IMG/VR virus record: IMGVR_UViG_3300022693_001205
Location: 1-20,464 of that record
Source of the DNA: a virus
Strand: one strand, 5' to 3'
DNA: 20,464 bases
The position numbers and the translations under genes were made by a program. This document shows positions 2,307-12,025 of this stretch, in pieces. Under the pieces are notes generated by a model. That model was given only the letters and a program-made list of their open reading frames with translations. It ran no database searches and was not told the origin of the DNA. The number at the start of each line of letters is the position of its first letter. Position 1 is the stretch's first letter.

Positions 2307-3173
2307 ATGTCATATTCAATGAGCACAGCAACACTGTTAAACGCTCCGTATTTACCTTACTTAATACACGAATATTTTATTTATCAACACTCTATCAGAC
2401 ATGCTGAAAAATTCAAAAAGGTTTGTGCTTGTTTAGAAGAGTTCGGAGCATTGGATAACATCGACGAGTTAAGAAAGCTCTATAGCATGTTTACTTATAA
2501 CGAAAACTTTGCTTCTGGCTCAAAAGGCGGAAGAGATAATTACGATCTTTTATTGAGAGGTCTCACTGAAATTTTCCATTATGAGAGAGCTAACTTTTGG
2601 CAAGATATCGTTAATTGTTTAGATGACAATGACTTGGAATCGTTTGGTAACGAAAGCTCTTTGGCAGATGTATGTTGCGGAGATGGAGAATACGCTAAAT
2701 CTTTCTTGGAAACATTTGCTGACTCGAAAGTAACCATGATAGACCGGCCAGGAGTTATCAATATTAAATGGCCAGGAATCGAAATCCCGAGGGAGAGGAG
2801 ATTTATAGTAGAAGTTGATCTACTGTGGGATCCAACAACAATCAAAGAAATGTTGGAAAACTGCAAAGAACATGACGTAGTTCTCTTGTCGGAAGTGTTG
2901 CACTTGAAAGGAGAACAAGAACGCAACGCGATTCTAGATGTTTGTAAAGGTTTGTTAAAAAAGGGAGGGTGTTTATTGGTGGTAGAAAGTGGAGATCCCT
3001 TCCTAGATCTCAGGTTGCATGACTTAACCGAATCAGGTGCTGCTATGCAGCTCGATGATGTTAAGAAAGTAATAAACGATTTTAACTCTTGGGTATCTGA
3101 AGATGTTTTTAAGTTCCAAGCATTTAACTATCAAGGAAGATATCATCATGTCTCTATTTTTAGAAAACTTTAA
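2307..3173 (+). CDS. SAM-dependent methyltransferase, O-methyltransferase-like
   Basis: The 288-residue product has a helical N-terminal half and a Rossmann-type C-terminal half. Motif I reads LADVCCGDGEYAKSF (around residue 118), with DVCCGDG in place of the usual DVGGGxG. It is followed by TMIDRPGVI, close to the DLPxVI signature of the plant and hydroxyindole O-methyltransferase family (Methyltransf_2), then DVVLLSEVLHLK and GLLKKGGCLLVVES, matching motifs IV and V. These motifs are seen; the acceptor is not. Family members usually methylate hydroxyl groups of small molecules. The gene overlaps the next, a pyrimidine-modifying enzyme, by 26 bases, so a modified nucleotide or base is a possible acceptor (inference). 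AAGGA precedes the start at normal spacing. Confidence 0.7.
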   Translation: MSYSMSTATLLNAPYLPYLIHEYFIYQHSIRHAEKFKKVCACLEEFGALDNIDELRKLYSMFTYNENFASGSKGGRDNYDLLLRGLTEIFHYERANFWQDIVNCLDDNDLESFGNESSLADVCCGDGEYAKSFLETFADSKVTMIDRPGVINIKWPGIEIPRERRFIVEVDLLWDPTTIKEMLENCKEHDVVLLSEVLHLKGEQERNAILDVCKGLLKKGGCLLVVESGDPFLDLRLHDLTESGAAMQLDDVKKVINDFNSWVSEDVFKFQAFNYQGRYHHVSIFRKL

Positions 3174-3873
3174 GTTAGCAGATCGTTACGACACAGCCGA
3201 AAGGTGGTTGCTTAATGAGCTTGTTTGTATGTCAGAGTTCAAACCTAAGAAGACTCGTGAAAACATAGGTGTTGGTTTTAAGATGTGTCCATATGATGCA
3301 GAGTGGCCAGAAAGAGACGCTATTGCATTTAAGTCTAAGCGTTTAAACAAAGAACACTGCGAGATCTTTTTCCAGTGGATAATGTCAGGAGATACTGATT
3401 TAACAGAAAAGATAGATAAGTTACAACCCTATGCGAAAATCTTTGTCGACAAGACTGGATTGCCTAAAAACTTTAGTTCTTCTTACGGTTGGAAGATAAA
3501 AGAACAGTTGCCAATAATTATAGAAGAGTTAAAGCGTAATCCAGATTCCCGAAGAGCTTATCTGAGTATCTTATTGAAGGGAGATAATCTTATTTTGAAT
3601 GCCAAAACCTCTATGGAATATCCTTGCACAATAGGAGCTCATTATTTCATCAGAGGAGGTCGGTTGCATACTGTTACTCACATGCGAAGTCAGAATGTTT
3701 GGTCTGTCATGGGATATGACGTTTATAACATGTGCAGACTTCAGGAACACTTATCAGAAAAGTTGGATTGTCTAGTCGGAGATTACACGCACTTTATAGA
3801 TTCTGCTCATATCTTCACTCGTGACATCGAAAAAATTGATGAATACTTAAACAAAGAGGCAATCATATTATGA
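3148..3873 (+). CDS. Thymidylate-synthase homologue, predicted dCMP (hydroxy)methylase
   Basis: The 241-residue product follows the thymidylate synthase fold. It has the phosphate-binding pair in DSRR (135-136), the nucleophile Cys160 in YPCT, Arg180 and Ser181 of the RS motif, GD (211-212) and His221. From Cys160 on, about 70 residues align to E. coli ThyA without a gap. In that alignment Asn177 of ThyA, which selects dUMP, is Asp191 here. Asp at this place is the hallmark of dCMP-specific members such as T4 dCMP hydroxymethylase (established knowledge). The Asp of the RSxD motif is Asn and Tyr of HxY is Phe. ATG 3148 has AAGGAAG upstream; the frame is open further 5' but lies inside the methyltransferase gene. 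Product (5-hydroxymethyl- or 5-methyl-dCMP) is inferred. It overlaps the kinase gene by 4 bases. Confidence 0.75.
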   Translation: MSLFLENFKLADRYDTAERWLLNELVCMSEFKPKKTRENIGVGFKMCPYDAEWPERDAIAFKSKRLNKEHCEIFFQWIMSGDTDLTEKIDKLQPYAKIFVDKTGLPKNFSSSYGWKIKEQLPIIIEELKRNPDSRRAYLSILLKGDNLILNAKTSMEYPCTIGAHYFIRGGRLHTVTHMRSQNVWSVMGYDVYNMCRLQEHLSEKLDCLVGDYTHFIDSAHIFTRDIEKIDEYLNKEAIIL

Positions 3874-4763
3874 GTTTCATTGTCGAAGGGATGGACGGCA
3901 CTGGGAAAAGTCATCTTTCTGCTAAGCTATCTAGGATGTTTGCTTTCAGAGATGGTGTTGGATACTCACATTCCGGTAGAAAGTTTGGGTTCTACGAAGA
4001 AATCAAGATGGTGAAAAGCGGTTCAGATAACATGATTTACGATCGCTTGTCTCACCTTTCGGAGCAGGTTTATGGCCCGATCTTACGTGGCTTTACCGAG
4101 AAATGGCTAGGTCATAGGGCATTTGATAGGGTTTGTCTTTCAAAGAGAGGCGTGGTTATTCTCTGCGATCCTGGGCTCGAAGCTGCAAAAAAGAGTTGGG
4201 AAGCAAATAAAGAATACGAGATGATCAAAGATGTAGACGAGTGGATGACTGGTTATTATGCTTATCAAAATCTCGCAACTCACCTTCCCATCGTATCCTA
4301 TGATTGGACACGAGACACGGCTTTGGACTTGTTCTCTCGGATCGAATATTGTACTCCATCAGAAGATTTAGGACCAGGCTCTGGTCACTTCAAACAGGGG
4401 AATGTCTTGATAGTTGCTGATAGATGTAACCTGAGCGAACAGTGCGAAGTCCCTTTTGCTGCAAAAAACGGAAGTTCGATGTGGTTATCTAATTTATTAG
4501 ACGAGTATGGCATTCCAGAAAATAAACTTTACTGGGCAAATTCATTCACCCACGATGGTAACAAGGTAGATCCCTGCTATATGGAGATTCTGGAGCCTTC
4601 CAAAATTTTTGCTTTGGGTAGAGAAGCAGAGAAATATTTAAAAGATGTTAGCGTAATACCAGACGAGAGCTTTCCTCATCCTCAATACTGGAAAAGGTTT
4701 CATTACAATAGTCCTTATTCTTTTGTATCGGTATTGAAGAGAGCTACTGATGCTATTGCTTAA
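3870..4763 (+). CDS. P-loop deoxynucleoside monophosphate kinase fused to a UDG-like domain
   Basis: Residues 1-165 form a thymidylate-kinase-like P-loop domain: Walker A GMDGTGKS (7-14), YDRLSHLSEQVYG (57-69) matching the DR-S-VYG signature, and YDWTRD (144-149) near its end. Residues about 175-290 resemble the family-4 uracil-DNA glycosylase fold: VLIVADRCN, NGSSMWLSNLL (200-210), LYWANS (220-225), PSKIFALGREA (243-253) and a His-Pro motif FPHPQYW (268-274). The usual catalytic GEAPG motif is not intact, so this half may bind a base rather than cleave it. ATG 3870 overlaps the upstream stop. Next to a dCMP-type thymidylate-synthase homologue, the kinase probably phosphorylates the modified dNMP (inference). 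Two-domain nucleotide-modification enzymes are known in phages with hypermodified DNA, but I do not know this exact fusion. Confidence 0.65.
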   Translation: MSFIVEGMDGTGKSHLSAKLSRMFAFRDGVGYSHSGRKFGFYEEIKMVKSGSDNMIYDRLSHLSEQVYGPILRGFTEKWLGHRAFDRVCLSKRGVVILCDPGLEAAKKSWEANKEYEMIKDVDEWMTGYYAYQNLATHLPIVSYDWTRDTALDLFSRIEYCTPSEDLGPGSGHFKQGNVLIVADRCNLSEQCEVPFAAKNGSSMWLSNLLDEYGIPENKLYWANSFTHDGNKVDPCYMEILEPSKIFALGREAEKYLKDVSVIPDESFPHPQYWKRFHYNSPYSFVSVLKRATDAIA

Positions 4764-5256
4764 TTTCTGCAAAACTAGGAAGGTTAAGTCTCCAGAAAAA
4801 GGGCATAACACGGATGCTGGTATTGACTTCTTTGTTCCATACGATTTCGAAGAAGAGAATATATATTTTGGTGAAGATATTTTAATTCCATCTGGAATAA
4901 AGATGGAAATTCCTTCAGGTTACGCGCTGGTTCAGTTTAATAAAAGCGGTATTGCAACCAAGGAGCAGCTCATTGTTGGCGCTTGTGTTATCGACGAAGG
5001 TTATCAAGGAGAAATACATCTTCACGTGATTAACATCGGAGAACATGTCACGAAGATTTTTCCTGGTATGAAGATAATGCAAGGATTGCTGCTTCCAGTT
5101 CCTGGTGTTGCCATCGTAGAAAAAGATGAAATAGATCTGTTCAGCAAAAAAAGCGCAAGAGGAATAGATGGGTTTGGTTCTACTTCTACAGATGACAAAG
5201 ATCCGACTGGTATGGAGATGGCCTGGAGATTAGCTAATTATGGAGGTACAAAATAA
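4750..5256 (+). CDS. dut: dUTP pyrophosphatase, trimeric type
   Basis: All five dUTPase motifs are present in order: AGIDF (23-27), KSGIA (65-69), GACVIDEGYQGEIH (77-90) with the catalytic Asp82 and the sugar-stacking Tyr85, FPGMKIMQGLL (104-114) and RGIDGFGSTS (137-146). The enzyme hydrolyses dUTP to dUMP and pyrophosphate, keeping uracil out of DNA and supplying dUMP. The 168 residues are slightly longer than the usual 140-155 because of about 22 residues after motif V. ATG 4750 overlaps the upstream kinase by 14 bases and has GAGAG upstream. In a phage with modified cytosine it might also remove dCTP, but nothing in the motifs proves that. Confidence 0.88.
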   Translation: MLLLNFCKTRKVKSPEKGHNTDAGIDFFVPYDFEEENIYFGEDILIPSGIKMEIPSGYALVQFNKSGIATKEQLIVGACVIDEGYQGEIHLHVINIGEHVTKIFPGMKIMQGLLLPVPGVAIVEKDEIDLFSKKSARGIDGFGSTSTDDKDPTGMEMAWRLANYGGTK

Positions 5257-7673: not shown

Positions 7674-7910
7674 ATGGCTTACGAGCTAAAAGAAGGTAAG
7701 GGTTCTCTATTTCCCAATGAAAAAAGAGAAAGCGATAAGCACCCTCTCATGACTGGTAACGGTAAATGGCGAGGGGAAGAGATTCAGTTAGCCGCTTGGA
7801 AAACAAAATCTAAAAGCGGTAAAGAATATTTATCCTTAACTTTTCAAGAGCCGTTTAATAGCGGAAACGAAAGTTATACCAAAGAAAAGAAAAGCGACAT
7901 ACCGTTTTAA
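7674..7910 (+). CDS. Small OB-like protein with an SSB-type C-terminal tip
   Basis: The product is 78 residues: a short basic leader, a GNGKWRGEEIQLAAWK beta-like segment, a KSKSGKEYLSLTF strand (47-57), then a polar tail ending in SDIPF. Small phage proteins with the pattern GKW.G..I.LAAW..SKSG..YLSL.F form a DUF736-like group. The final DIPF is the same as the end of bacterial SSB, which docks exonuclease I, RecO and other partners, although here the preceding residues are basic rather than acidic. The gene directly follows the exonuclease, and AGGAG precedes ATG 7674. A single-strand-binding or partner-recruiting role is an inference. Confidence 0.6.
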   Translation: MAYELKEGKGSLFPNEKRESDKHPLMTGNGKWRGEEIQLAAWKTKSKSGKEYLSLTFQEPFNSGNESYTKEKKSDIPF

Positions 7911-7991
7911 TTATTGTGCCTAAGATGTGGCCCCGTGTCTTAGGTCCCTCCCTCTGCGAACGGGGCGCAAACTAAAAGGGAATAATTCTTT
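7911..7991 (+). promoter_or_regulatory. Structured leader of nrdJ: candidate H-type pseudoknot riboregulator
   Basis: This 81-base gap is the only sizeable one in the left arm after position 476. CCTAAGA (7919-7925) pairs with TCTTAGG (7938-7944). GCCCCGT (7930-7936), inside that loop, pairs with ACGGGGC (7960-7966). Both are perfect 7-base-pair stems and they interleave as an H-type pseudoknot with loops of 4, 1 and 15 bases. The 15-base loop contains TCCCT twice (7945-7949, 7949-7953), the exact complement of AGGGA (7977-7981), the ribosome binding site of the reductase gene. That suits translational control. There is no T-run, so it is not an intrinsic terminator. It is far too short for a standard cobalamin riboswitch. 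I cannot name the ligand or class. Confidence 0.6.
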
Positions 7992-9878
7992 ATGAATGAA
8001 TACCAGAAATTTATACACAAAAGTCGCTATGCTCGTTACCTCGACGAGGCCGAAAGAAGAGAAACATGGGAAGAGACCGTAGACAGATATTGTGACTTTA
8101 TGAAGAATTCTGATCTGTTTGAATTGAAGTCAGAAGGAGAAGATAACAAGTATCAAAAAATGTGGGATCGGTCTAGGCAAGCGATATTAAACATGGATGT
8201 AATGCCATCGATGAGAGCGATGATGACAGCTGGTCCAGCCCTAGAAAGAGATAACATGGCTGGTTATAACTGTGCTTACATTGCTGTCGATCATCCAAGA
8301 GTGTTTGATGAGAATCTTTATGTGCTCTTATGCGGGACGGGGGTTGGGTTCAGTGTCGAGAGACAATATATAAGTAAGTTGCCTGAGATAGCAGAAGAAT
8401 TTCACGAAAGCGAAACAACAATAATCATAAGAGATAGTAAGATTGGATGGTCAAAAGCCTTAAGAGAATTGGTTAGTTTGCTTTACCAAGGCATGATTCC
8501 TCAGGTAGATTTTTCCAGAATTAGATTAGCAGGTGCTCGGCTAAAAACCTTTGGGGGCAGAGCCTCTGGGCCCGAGCCGTTGGAAAGATTATTTTCTCAT
8601 TATATTTCTACCTTCAAGGCTGCACAAGGAAGAAAGCTTAACAGCATAGAGTGTCATGATTTAATGTGTTGGAACGGCGAAAGTGTTGTTGTTGGTGGTG
8701 TTAGAAGAGCAGCTGAAATAAGTTTAAGCAATTTAACAGATGAACGCATGAGATATGCCAAGTCTGGACAATGGTGGGTAGATCATGCTCAAAGAGCATT
8801 AGCTAACAACTCTGTTTGTTATACAGAAAAGCCTGAAATGGGTATCTTTCTAAGAGAATGGACAGCTCTTTACGAATCCAAGAGCGGGGAAAGGGGGATC
8901 TTTAATAGAAATGCTTGCTTAAAGCTTCTCCCCGAAAGGAGAGATAGAGAGCATGAGTTTGGGTGCAACCCCTGTTCTGAGATTGTTTTAAGATCAGCCG
9001 GTGTTTGTAATTTAACTGAGTGCGTTATCCGACCCGAAGACACAGAAGAAAACATAAAAGAAAAGATCCTTATTGCAACCTTTCTAGGTACTGTGCAATC
9101 TGCATTAACCAACTTCCGTTATGTTAGGGCTGTGTGGAGGAAAAATGCGGAAGAGGAAAGATTGCTTGGGGTTAGTTTCACTGGTATATTTGATTGCCCT
9201 ACGCTAATTAATGCTACAGCAACAAAGCTGCAAGATTGGAAACAATTAGCTGTAGAAGAAAATAAAAGGTGGGCTAAACTATTTCAGATCAATCAATCAG
9301 CTGCTGTTACTTGTGTAAAGCCTTCTGGAACTGTTAGCCAATTAACTGGTATAACTAGTTCCGGGTTACATCCATCGTTTTCAAAATATTATATTCGGAG
9401 AGTAAGGCAGGACAAGAAAGACCCGTTAAACAAAGTTATCATAGCTGCTAACATTCCTTACGAAGCAGATCCCTACAATAACGAAGCGGTTGTTTTCCTG
9501 TTTCCCATGAAGGCGCCTAAAGGATCTCGTATTAAAGACTCTGTTTCTGCCATACAGCATCTAGAGATATGGAAAAAGTTTGCTTTAAATTGGTGCGAAC
9601 ACAAACCAAGCTGCACTATTTATGTTGGTGAAGAAGAGTGGATGGAGGTTGGAGCTTGGTGTTACACAAATTTTGATATTCTCAGCGGAGTTAGTTTCCT
9701 ACCAAAAAGCGAAGACCAACACATCTATGAATCAGCCCCATTCACCGAAATAACATTAAACGAATGGAAGACCTTTCCCAAAAGCAAAGACATTGCATGG
9801 GACGAAGTTCAAGAAAGCGAAGATAATACAACAGCAAGTCAAGAATTGGCTTGCTTTGCAGGAGTCTGCGAGATATGA
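7992..9878 (+). CDS. nrdJ: Adenosylcobalamin-dependent (class II) ribonucleotide reductase
   Basis: The 628-residue protein matches the monomeric class II enzyme. It has YNCAY (92-96, Cys94) and VCN (Cys339) as the redox pair, NPCSE (326-330) with the thiyl-radical Cys328 and Glu330, CVKPSGTVSQLTG (441-453) for substrate phosphate binding, and a C-terminal CFAGVC (Cys621, Cys626) that re-reduces the active site. It makes deoxyribonucleotides using cobalamin and so needs no oxygen and no small subunit, but it depends on host B12. It is shorter than the roughly 740-residue Lactobacillus enzyme. ATG 7992 is preceded by AAAAGGGA at long spacing, and by a structured leader that probably regulates it. 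It overlaps the next gene by 4 bases. Confidence 0.93.
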   Translation: MNEYQKFIHKSRYARYLDEAERRETWEETVDRYCDFMKNSDLFELKSEGEDNKYQKMWDRSRQAILNMDVMPSMRAMMTAGPALERDNMAGYNCAYIAVDHPRVFDENLYVLLCGTGVGFSVERQYISKLPEIAEEFHESETTIIIRDSKIGWSKALRELVSLLYQGMIPQVDFSRIRLAGARLKTFGGRASGPEPLERLFSHYISTFKAAQGRKLNSIECHDLMCWNGESVVVGGVRRAAEISLSNLTDERMRYAKSGQWWVDHAQRALANNSVCYTEKPEMGIFLREWTALYESKSGERGIFNRNACLKLLPERRDREHEFGCNPCSEIVLRSAGVCNLTECVIRPEDTEENIKEKILIATFLGTVQSALTNFRYVRAVWRKNAEEERLLGVSFTGIFDCPTLINATATKLQDWKQLAVEENKRWAKLFQINQSAAVTCVKPSGTVSQLTGITSSGLHPSFSKYYIRRVRQDKKDPLNKVIIAANIPYEADPYNNEAVVFLFPMKAPKGSRIKDSVSAIQHLEIWKKFALNWCEHKPSCTIYVGEEEWMEVGAWCYTNFDILSGVSFLPKSEDQHIYESAPFTEITLNEWKTFPKSKDIAWDEVQESEDNTTASQELACFAGVCEI

Positions 9879-10387: not shown

Positions 10388-10690
10388 TTAAATTTCTAAT
10401 ACTTCTATAACACGAATGTTTTCAACGCTCTCTGTAGGGATATACCATAGATTGCCCCAGTAACCCTCTTCTTTTGTCATTGCCAAAGAAACCCAGTCAG
10501 TATTTTTTTCTATTAAAAGACCGTAAGTTTTAGACAAAACCTTTTTTGGCTCGTGTTTTGCCCACCCAGATTCGGTGTAAGAATCTAGCCAGGACACTTC
10601 TACTAACTTCGTTTCTTTCTTTTCTCTAGTGGGCCCGGCAGTATCCACCCTAGGATCATCGGCATTAATATAACTAAGATTAGCATCCAT
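10388..10690 (-). CDS. Small hypothetical phage protein, up to 100 aa
   Basis: This is the last gene of the leftward late arm. The part after about residue 28 is protein-like: KLVEVSWLDSYTESGW, then a strand pattern (TYGLLIEKNTDWVSLAM), then GYWGNLWYIPTESVENIRVIEVL. It looks like a small beta-rich protein that many phages carry, with no assigned function. ATG 10690 is the only ATG, but it puts the first 88 bases inside the upstream membrane-protein gene; GTG 10648 and GTG about 10598 are later options. The N-terminus is therefore uncertain. Confidence 0.55.
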   Translation of the reverse strand: MDANLSYINADDPRVDTAGPTREKKETKLVEVSWLDSYTESGWAKHEPKKVLSKTYGLLIEKNTDWVSLAMTKEEGYWGNLWYIPTESVENIRVIEVLEI

Positions 10691-11046
10691 CCGCCCATCT
10701 CCACTAGTTGTCCAACAACATCCCAGAAATTAGATTCTGCACAGTTATTCAATGTTATATCTCCAGTCTCCTTGTTTGCTAGATCCACACCCACACTCAT
10801 CACAGAGGCACCTACCGCTGAGGCCAGTAACACAGGGGCAGTCCCCGATGTCGCAATCGAGGCAATCGCACCCGCTCCTAGTGAGCCTCCCCCTATCAAT
10901 ACTGCTTTCTTTAGGCTGGTACATCCGCCGATCCAAAGAACAGCGAGTAAACAAGCGTAGCGATTATTAGAACAGCTGCTATTGCTAACACTGGATTTTC
11001 TTTTGCCCAGTTTTTTAATGATTCCATACGTGTCTCCTTTAAGCAT
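10603..11046 (-). CDS. Predicted lipoprotein-like membrane protein, start uncertain
   Basis: The C-terminal 110 residues of this frame look real. A hydrophobic stretch ends in a lipobox-like WIGGC and is followed by TSLKKAVLIGG, a long Gly/Ala-rich hydrophobic region, a short polar loop with one Cys, and a strong membrane segment GWMLILVILMPMILGWILPG before a basic tail. A lipidated or two-pass inner-membrane protein is likely. ATG 11046 overlaps the previous stop but lacks an obvious ribosome binding site and gives an unusually long 30-residue basic leader; TTG 10899 would drop the lipobox. A 38-codon membrane peptide with a perfect ribosome binding site is encoded in another frame over 10911-11027. 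A lysis-related role is possible but unproven. Confidence 0.5.
   Translation of the reverse strand: MLKGDTYGIIKKLGKRKSSVSNSSCSNNRYACLLAVLWIGGCTSLKKAVLIGGGSLGAGAIASIATSGTAPVLLASAVGASVMSVGVDLANKETGDITLNNCAESNFWDVVGQLVEMGGWMLILVILMPMILGWILPGPLEKRKKRS
10911..11027 (-). CDS. 38-aa single-pass membrane peptide
   Basis: ATG 11027 has AAAGGAG seven bases upstream, the best ribosome binding site in this part of the late arm, and the frame ends at TAA 10911-10913. The peptide has a charged start (MESLKNWAKENP), one hydrophobic helix (about residues 13-31, VLAIAAVLIIATLVYSLFF) and a short Gly/Ser/Asp tail, so it is a one-pass membrane peptide. It overlaps, in a different frame, the N-terminal part of the lipoprotein-like ORF. 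Very small membrane peptides in phage late arms can be holins or holin regulators. That assignment is a guess from size and topology only. Confidence 0.6.
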   Translation of the reverse strand: MESLKNWAKENPVLAIAAVLIIATLVYSLFFGSADVPA

Positions 11047-11713
11047 AGTTAGAACATTTACCGGTGATCGGATCACATCTTGAATAACCGCCTATCCCAG
11101 CAAACGACTTTGCTCTTGCTGCTCTTAGTTTTTCAATAAACAACTTAGGAGTGGTGTCAGTTGGCTTGGGAGCTATAGTTGTCAGCTCTTCAGGTACTAC
11201 TGTCTTGATTGGTATCAATGGAGCAGCGGTTGCCATGGGTGCCGCAGGGGCTGGGGCAGGCGCAAGTGTTGGTATTGGCGTCGTCGGCGGGGGAGGAGTA
11301 GCGGCCAATGGAGGTGCTACAGGAGTTACTACAGGCGTTGCAAGCGGAGCAGACATAGCTGACAGAGTAGACACCGATGGAGGTGGTGGTCCAGTAGGAA
11401 AGGCCGACGGCCCTCCAGACATCATCTTCGAAAATGCTATAGGGTCCATTCCAGGCGGGATGGGCATTCCAGCCATCTCTGCTGCAGCGATGATCTCAGC
11501 CGCTGTTGGGTCTACTGTTCCAGTTATGTAACTATATCCAGGTGGTCCCGATGTTGCATAAGGATCTGGCTCCATTGCACTCATTGAACCTGCTAAAATG
11601 CCGGCAAGCGGGTCTGGCGGCAGAGATCCAGAAGGATCTGGTCCCATCGGATATCCGGTAGGATCTGGACCTACTATACCTGGGTCAGGGGATGTCGGGG
11701 AAGTTACTGGCAT
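11039..11713 (-). CDS. Proline-rich low-complexity protein, 224 aa
   Basis: The first 50 residues carry repeated PDP motifs (SPDPG, GPDPTG, GPDPSG, PPDPLAG, EPDPY). Residues about 105-165 are almost entirely Pro, Ala, Thr and Val. The last 35 residues form a basic segment (FIEKLRAARAKSF) followed by CDPITGKC with two Cys. Such extended Pro/Ala linkers occur in virion decoration, tail and spacer proteins. No known domain is visible and there is no signal peptide. ATG 11713 lies 3 bases after the stop of the Fe-S carrier gene. The antisense ORF over the same stretch is a by-product of GC-rich codons. Confidence 0.6.
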   Translation of the reverse strand: MPVTSPTSPDPGIVGPDPTGYPMGPDPSGSLPPDPLAGILAGSMSAMEPDPYATSGPPGYSYITGTVDPTAAEIIAAAEMAGMPIPPGMDPIAFSKMMSGGPSAFPTGPPPPSVSTLSAMSAPLATPVVTPVAPPLAATPPPPTTPIPTLAPAPAPAAPMATAAPLIPIKTVVPEELTTIAPKPTDTTPKLFIEKLRAARAKSFAGIGGYSRCDPITGKCSNYA

Positions 11714-11716
11714 TAT

Positions 11717-12025
11717 CTATTCCTCGAGAGTGAAAGAATTACCACAACCACACGACTTAGTATTTGGTATATCAAATTTAAATGTTGGCGAGAATGCGTC
11801 ATCGGTCCAATCCAGAGTTGCCTTCGATAAATACTCCGCCGAGATGGAGTCGATCAGTATATTTGGATTGATCCAGATGTCGTCTTTGGTAGGACGCTTC
11901 TCTTGTTCGCGTGATAGCCCTACCGTGAAACCACTGCATCCTCCTCCGTTGACAGAGATTCGTAATCGCTCTGAGTCTCCCAAGATCTCTTCTATTTTTT
12001 GGTCTGCTGAAAGAGTGATGTTCAT
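11717..12025 (-). CDS. A-type iron-sulfur carrier (IscA/SufA/ErpA/HesB family)
   Basis: The 102-residue protein has the family signature: GGGCSGF (27-33) with Cys30, and SCGCGNSF (91-98) with Cys92 and Cys94. These are the three conserved cysteines that bind iron or an Fe-S cluster. The usual beta-rich middle and an NPN-like turn (residues 53-55) are also present, and the length is typical. Family members deliver clusters to client proteins in the cytoplasm. In this phage the Cas4-like exonuclease is an obvious possible client (inference). The gene sits in the late arm between small membrane-protein genes and a Pro-rich protein, and overlaps the gene upstream by 4 bases, so it is expressed late. 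Confidence 0.9.
   Translation of the reverse strand: MNITLSADQKIEEILGDSERLRISVNGGGCSGFTVGLSREQEKRPTKDDIWINPNILIDSISAEYLSKATLDWTDDAFSPTFKFDIPNTKSCGCGNSFTLEE

Follow-up and report, generated by a model that had tools for sequence, protein, structure and literature searches.

The closest described system to the element reported here is the gene 32 operator of phage T4. In this operator, a pseudoknot of about 28 nt precedes a less structured stretch of more than 40 nt that covers the ribosome site, and both parts are needed for repression (PMC535899; PMC3014915). Binding of the protein gp32 starts at the pseudoknot and then extends across the ribosome site (PMC535899; PMC3014915). Other described RNAs share single features with our locus. 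The STAXI motif (RF01728) is a pseudoknot near genes for single-strand DNA-binding (SSB) proteins (PMC2864571), and an nrdJ RNA motif, listed in Rfam, has been reported in Streptomyces (PMC8388888). Also, H-type pseudoknots exist among riboswitches, for example those for SAM/SAH (PMC7367207) and preQ1 (PMC11625349).

Here, we describe a predicted H-type pseudoknot in the leader of the class II (adenosylcobalamin) ribonucleotide reductase gene nrdJ of an uncultured phage, IMG/VR virus record IMGVR_UViG_3300022693_001205. The window, meaning the whole stretch of DNA that was analysed, comprises 20,464 bp. On the + strand, its left arm holds genes for nucleotide metabolism and replication, mostly overlapping or abutting, which encode thymidylate synthase-like, kinase-like, dUTPase, DnaB-like helicase, exonuclease, SSB-like, and NrdJ proteins. 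The thymidylate synthase-like gene (possibly a nucleotide-modifying variant) and the kinase-like and dUTPase genes are clustered near nrdJ (3103-5256, + strand), which suggests that the phage strongly remodels the dNTP pool or carries modified DNA. Between the stop codon of the SSB-like gene at 7910 and the nrdJ ATG at 7992 lies an 81-bp gap. This gap, originally described as the only sizeable one, is the arm's largest intergenic gap apart from the first 422 bases.

Direct reading of the gap recovers the stems, the loops, and the AGGGA motif exactly where the original prediction had placed them (Table 1); the capacity of this leader to fold and the position of the element are established. The predicted knot is 48 nt long (7919-7966) and extends from -73 to -26 relative to the nrdJ ATG. 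Its third loop holds two copies of TCCCT, at 7945-7949 and 7949-7953, with one base common to both. The sequence that follows is rich in A+T (71.9% across 7967-8030). No convincing promoter was found near the pseudoknot, and a search for a terminator-like site on the + strand at this locus was likewise negative.

Table 1. Features of the nrdJ leader and its flanking genes
Feature	Position	Strand	Basis
SSB-like small protein gene, 78 aa, C-terminal DIPF, upstream	7674..7910	+	PHROGs, DDIPF-tail family
3' end of SSB-like gene with its stop codon and the next 4 bases; 34 bp shared unchanged with sister phage	7881..7914	+	alignment
53-bp block identical in sister phage, whole pseudoknot inside	7916..7968	+	alignment
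Stem 1, 5' arm CCTAAGA	7919..7925	+	read from sequence
Loop 1 TGTG	7926..7929	+	read from sequence
Stem 2, 5' arm GCCCCGT	7930..7936	+	read from sequence
Junction, one base G	7937..7937	+	read from sequence
Stem 1, 3' arm TCTTAGG	7938..7944	+	read from sequence
Loop 3 TCCCTCCCTCTGCGA, TCCCT twice, overlapping	7945..7959	+	read from sequence
Stem 2, 3' arm ACGGGGC	7960..7966	+	read from sequence
Ribosome-binding region, A-rich, little structure	7967..7991	+	sequence, alignment, folding
Shine-Dalgarno AGGGA of nrdJ	7977..7981	+	read from sequence
nrdJ, class II (adenosylcobalamin) ribonucleotide reductase	7992..9878	+	PHROG 367 E 1e-159; Pfam RNR domains

Conservation provides the main evidence that this fold matters. 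The one relative that carries the element is the contig of an uncultured sister phage, IMGVR_UViG_3300036814_001729, whose NrdJ is 89% identical and which aligns over ~18.6 kb at 79% nucleotide identity, or 59% if third codon positions are taken. The 53-bp identical block is the longest identical run of this alignment. Windows with 48 of 48 bases unchanged occur only within it, coinciding with the knot, and differences resume immediately outside: the gap contains five, one at 7915 and four in 7967-7991. Other gaps between the two phages are 70 to 86% identical. By our own arithmetic, at background identities of 79 to 86%, a particular 48-base stretch would stay unchanged with a probability of ~1e-5 to 7e-4. 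When identity strings were permuted (500 trials), the longest run averaged 38 and never exceeded 63, so the length of the run is not extreme by itself, and the argument lies in its overlap with the knot. Because the sole fully identical 48-base windows coincide with the pseudoknot, loops included, the alignment indicates that the element is, with good confidence, functional. As for compensatory changes, the stems and all 20 loop bases are identical in the two genomes, with no substitution, and the Shine-Dalgarno sequence and loop 3 are both unchanged. Such strict retention of the loop bases suggests recognition by a protein or ligand, which would fit better than a plain barrier. Moreover, the SSB-like gene shows no synonymous change in its final codons, and so the constrained region may start near 7881.

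Elsewhere in the two-phage alignment, the second-longest identical run (47 bp, 10664-10710) covers the start of a minus-strand ORF (10388-10690), inside its overlap with the ORF at 10603-11076. Also on the minus strand, 11717-12025 encodes a 102-aa protein that has a C...CGCG pattern and matches PHROG 17776 (function unknown); in our reading, this phage protein resembles the A-type iron-sulfur carriers (HesB/IscA/ErpA).

The claim that the structure is hard to explain by chance holds for the gap but not for the window. A perfect 7/7-bp H-type knot arose in 15 of 200,000 first-order shuffles of the 81-nt gap and is thus unlikely there. At least one such knot was present in 22 of 300 shuffled whole windows (~7%), so the fold by itself is only moderately surprising, and a 7/7 knot somewhere in the whole window is unremarkable. 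The knot before nrdJ is the sole one of its kind on either strand of the window; the 1.63 Mb of phage and genome DNA compared contain ~20 distinct examples. The nested folding stability of the leader is ordinary (z = -0.83), as expected of a method that cannot represent pseudoknots. The anti-Shine-Dalgarno repeat adds little: when the letters of loop 3 are shuffled, 12% of the results contain TCCCT one or more times and 0.3% contain it twice, and hence the match is weak evidence.

Searches for further copies indicate that the element is lineage-specific, as far as the collections searched show. The Rfam/Infernal comparison proposed with the original prediction gave nothing relevant at the gathering cut-off or at E 10, the nrdJ motif and known riboswitches included. 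The idea of a general nrdJ riboregulator did not survive comparison with NrdJ relatives: the knot is absent from all 60 other upstream regions (that of L013 was truncated to 45 nt), and many relatives of ~70% identity have a start codon that abuts or overlaps the preceding gene. No knot was found in the leaders of six named phages or downstream of SSB relatives, where other genes directly follow. Exact patterns in which stem 1 was free, stem 2 was free, or loop 3 was fixed, run against the 2.9 million viral contigs of IMG/VR, returned the sister phage and three chance matches only (L202, L203, and L218); such patterns would miss more diverged forms of the element. A looser pattern yielded no further copy of the knot among the matches listed. 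GTDB genomes of bacteria and archaea gave 0 matches and then 6 matches without the second stem, phage records gave no DNA match, and plasmids gave two short chance matches. The window itself holds a single copy, with no near match elsewhere. In Lactobacillus genomes (L219, L222, and L224), a common hairpin, CCTAAGATGTG...TCTTAGG, precedes a T-run; it is terminator-like, and we rejected it as a relative of stem 1, the likeness being due to chance.

The leader may have access to more than one fold. Crude estimates, in which stacking energies are summed and a constant pseudoknot penalty is added, put the knot of stems 1 and 2 at about -20 kcal/mol and an alternative knot, made of stem 2 and a helix between loop 3 and the Shine-Dalgarno sequence, at about -18 kcal/mol. 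Without a pseudoknot, these 48 nt reach -15.8 kcal/mol in their best nested fold, while the nested fold of the whole 81-nt leader (-21.3 kcal/mol) is comparable to the knot estimate. On these models, an anti-Shine-Dalgarno switch between the two knots is possible. The default state is probably the knot of stems 1 and 2, given the rough energies and the presumed earlier formation of stem 1, and it would leave the Shine-Dalgarno sequence free because its 3' end lies 25 nt upstream of the start codon. Under nested folding, bases 7945-7949 of loop 3 are ~91% unpaired, and pairing with the Shine-Dalgarno sequence is not favoured. We consider it doubtful that the pseudoknot represents a new class of phage RNA switch that couples reductase synthesis to DNA-replication status by way of either a mutually exclusive loop:Shine-Dalgarno helix or the binding of phage SSB.

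We tentatively propose, by analogy with gene 32, that the pseudoknot between the SSB-like gene and nrdJ is a protein-bound, cis-acting translational operator of nrdJ, and we rank this reading above the others considered below. During transcription, the stem 1 hairpin would presumably form first and stem 2 next. As the default, the knot would leave the A-rich ribosome site open, allowing nrdJ to be translated. A phage protein, most economically the upstream SSB-like protein, would recognise the knot and, once bound, spread over the unstructured ribosome site, whereupon less reductase would be made. Free SSB (or scarce single-stranded DNA) would be the signal that there is enough reductase already. 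We infer the fold in vivo, the action on nrdJ, the binding of a protein, and the identity of that protein. In favour of such an operator are the 7/7 knot in the gap, its strict conservation, the A-rich ribosome site, the SSB-like neighbour, and a knot energy below that of the best nested fold of the same bases. Against it stand the invariance of the element in a sample of two genomes, the SSB relatives elsewhere that lack a downstream knot, the crudeness of the knot energy next to the comparable nested fold of the leader, and the basis of the SSB call. The 78-aa protein matches PHROGs annotated as "single strand DNA binding protein" (E 5e-6 and 3e-5) and belongs to a family with ...DDIPF tails, while a Pfam DUF736 match falls below the cut-off. 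Its predicted model is all-beta, and searches of solved structures and folds (PDB) returned no significant match; the SSB assignment, made from weak PHROG profile matches and the DIPF tail, is therefore only probable.

The likeness to the T4, T2, and RB69 gene 32 operators is one of arrangement: a phage mRNA, an H-type knot (here by prediction) upstream of the start codon, and an SSB context, perhaps together with an A/U-rich, unstructured ribosome site. However, gp32 regulates its own gene in T4, whereas our knot follows the SSB-like gene and precedes nrdJ. The folded part is also longer here (a predicted 48 nt), and the RNA 3' of it, although A-rich and weakly folding (-1.6 kcal/mol), is shorter than that of T4 and lacks UUAAA repeats. 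Also, the SSB-like protein here is small, and any kinship of it with gp32, or of this element with the gene 32 operators in sequence, would be conjecture. STAXI occurs as two to three tandem knots, often with UUCG loops, whereas the element here is a single copy without UUCG, and a search of the window with RF01728 gave no match. The likeness to the nrdJ RNA motif is an association with nrdJ by name, and cmscan to E 10 found no match to it here.

Several other explanations deserve weighing. A metabolite riboswitch, in which a small aptamer knot binds a nucleotide, cobalamin, or a similar ligand and so controls how accessible the nrdJ ribosome site is, whether by exchange of the two knots or otherwise, would account for the aptamer-like constancy of both stems and all loop bases. 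It would also make use of the pairing between TCCCT and AGGGA in an alternative knot of similar rough energy, and it has precedent in the small H-type riboswitches, which likewise sit in mRNA leaders. Riboswitches usually recur. This element was not found before other genes or in the other phages and genomes searched, it lacks an Rfam match, its Shine-Dalgarno sequence lies outside the knot, and a loop:Shine-Dalgarno match is cheap in a C-rich loop. We therefore regard a riboswitch as unlikely. The original prediction of a pseudoknot leader before nrdJ stands, and the leader is conserved and probably regulatory, but no specific ligand of the kind it suggested is indicated. Equally unlikely in our view is a structural mRNA element that does not switch, either a barrier or a processing or stability element that sets the level of the SSB-like cistron relative to that of nrdJ, or a shield of the nrdJ start from upstream translation. 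Its location between the stop and start of adjacent genes, the G+C-rich stem 2, and a constraint that reaches into the end of the SSB-like gene are all compatible with such a role, and in T4, the mRNA of gene 32 undergoes cleavage close to the pseudoknot as well (PMC3014915). Nevertheless, identical loop sequences would be needless for a barrier, and the + strand has no terminator-like site here.

Two further readings strike us as improbable. One is a DNA-level site, an operator or other binding site built from two interleaved inverted repeats: both stems are inverted repeats in DNA too, and conservation would look the same for an RNA or a DNA role. Such a site would be present in a single copy with no convincing promoter nearby, and it would be incidental that the repeats interleave with loop lengths that suit a pseudoknot. 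A chance fold, in a stretch that two related phages share through a slow local rate or recent exchange, draws on the frequency of 7/7 knots in shuffled windows, on the long runs in permuted alignments, and on the sample of two. It would nevertheless require two independent rarities to meet in one stretch of 48 bases whose immediate flanks differ again.

If the proposed operator is real, it would be a second, unrelated phage pseudoknot of this kind, lying between genes for an SSB-like protein and a ribonucleotide reductase. It would also make a compact and readily testable example of RNA control over phage nucleotide supply.
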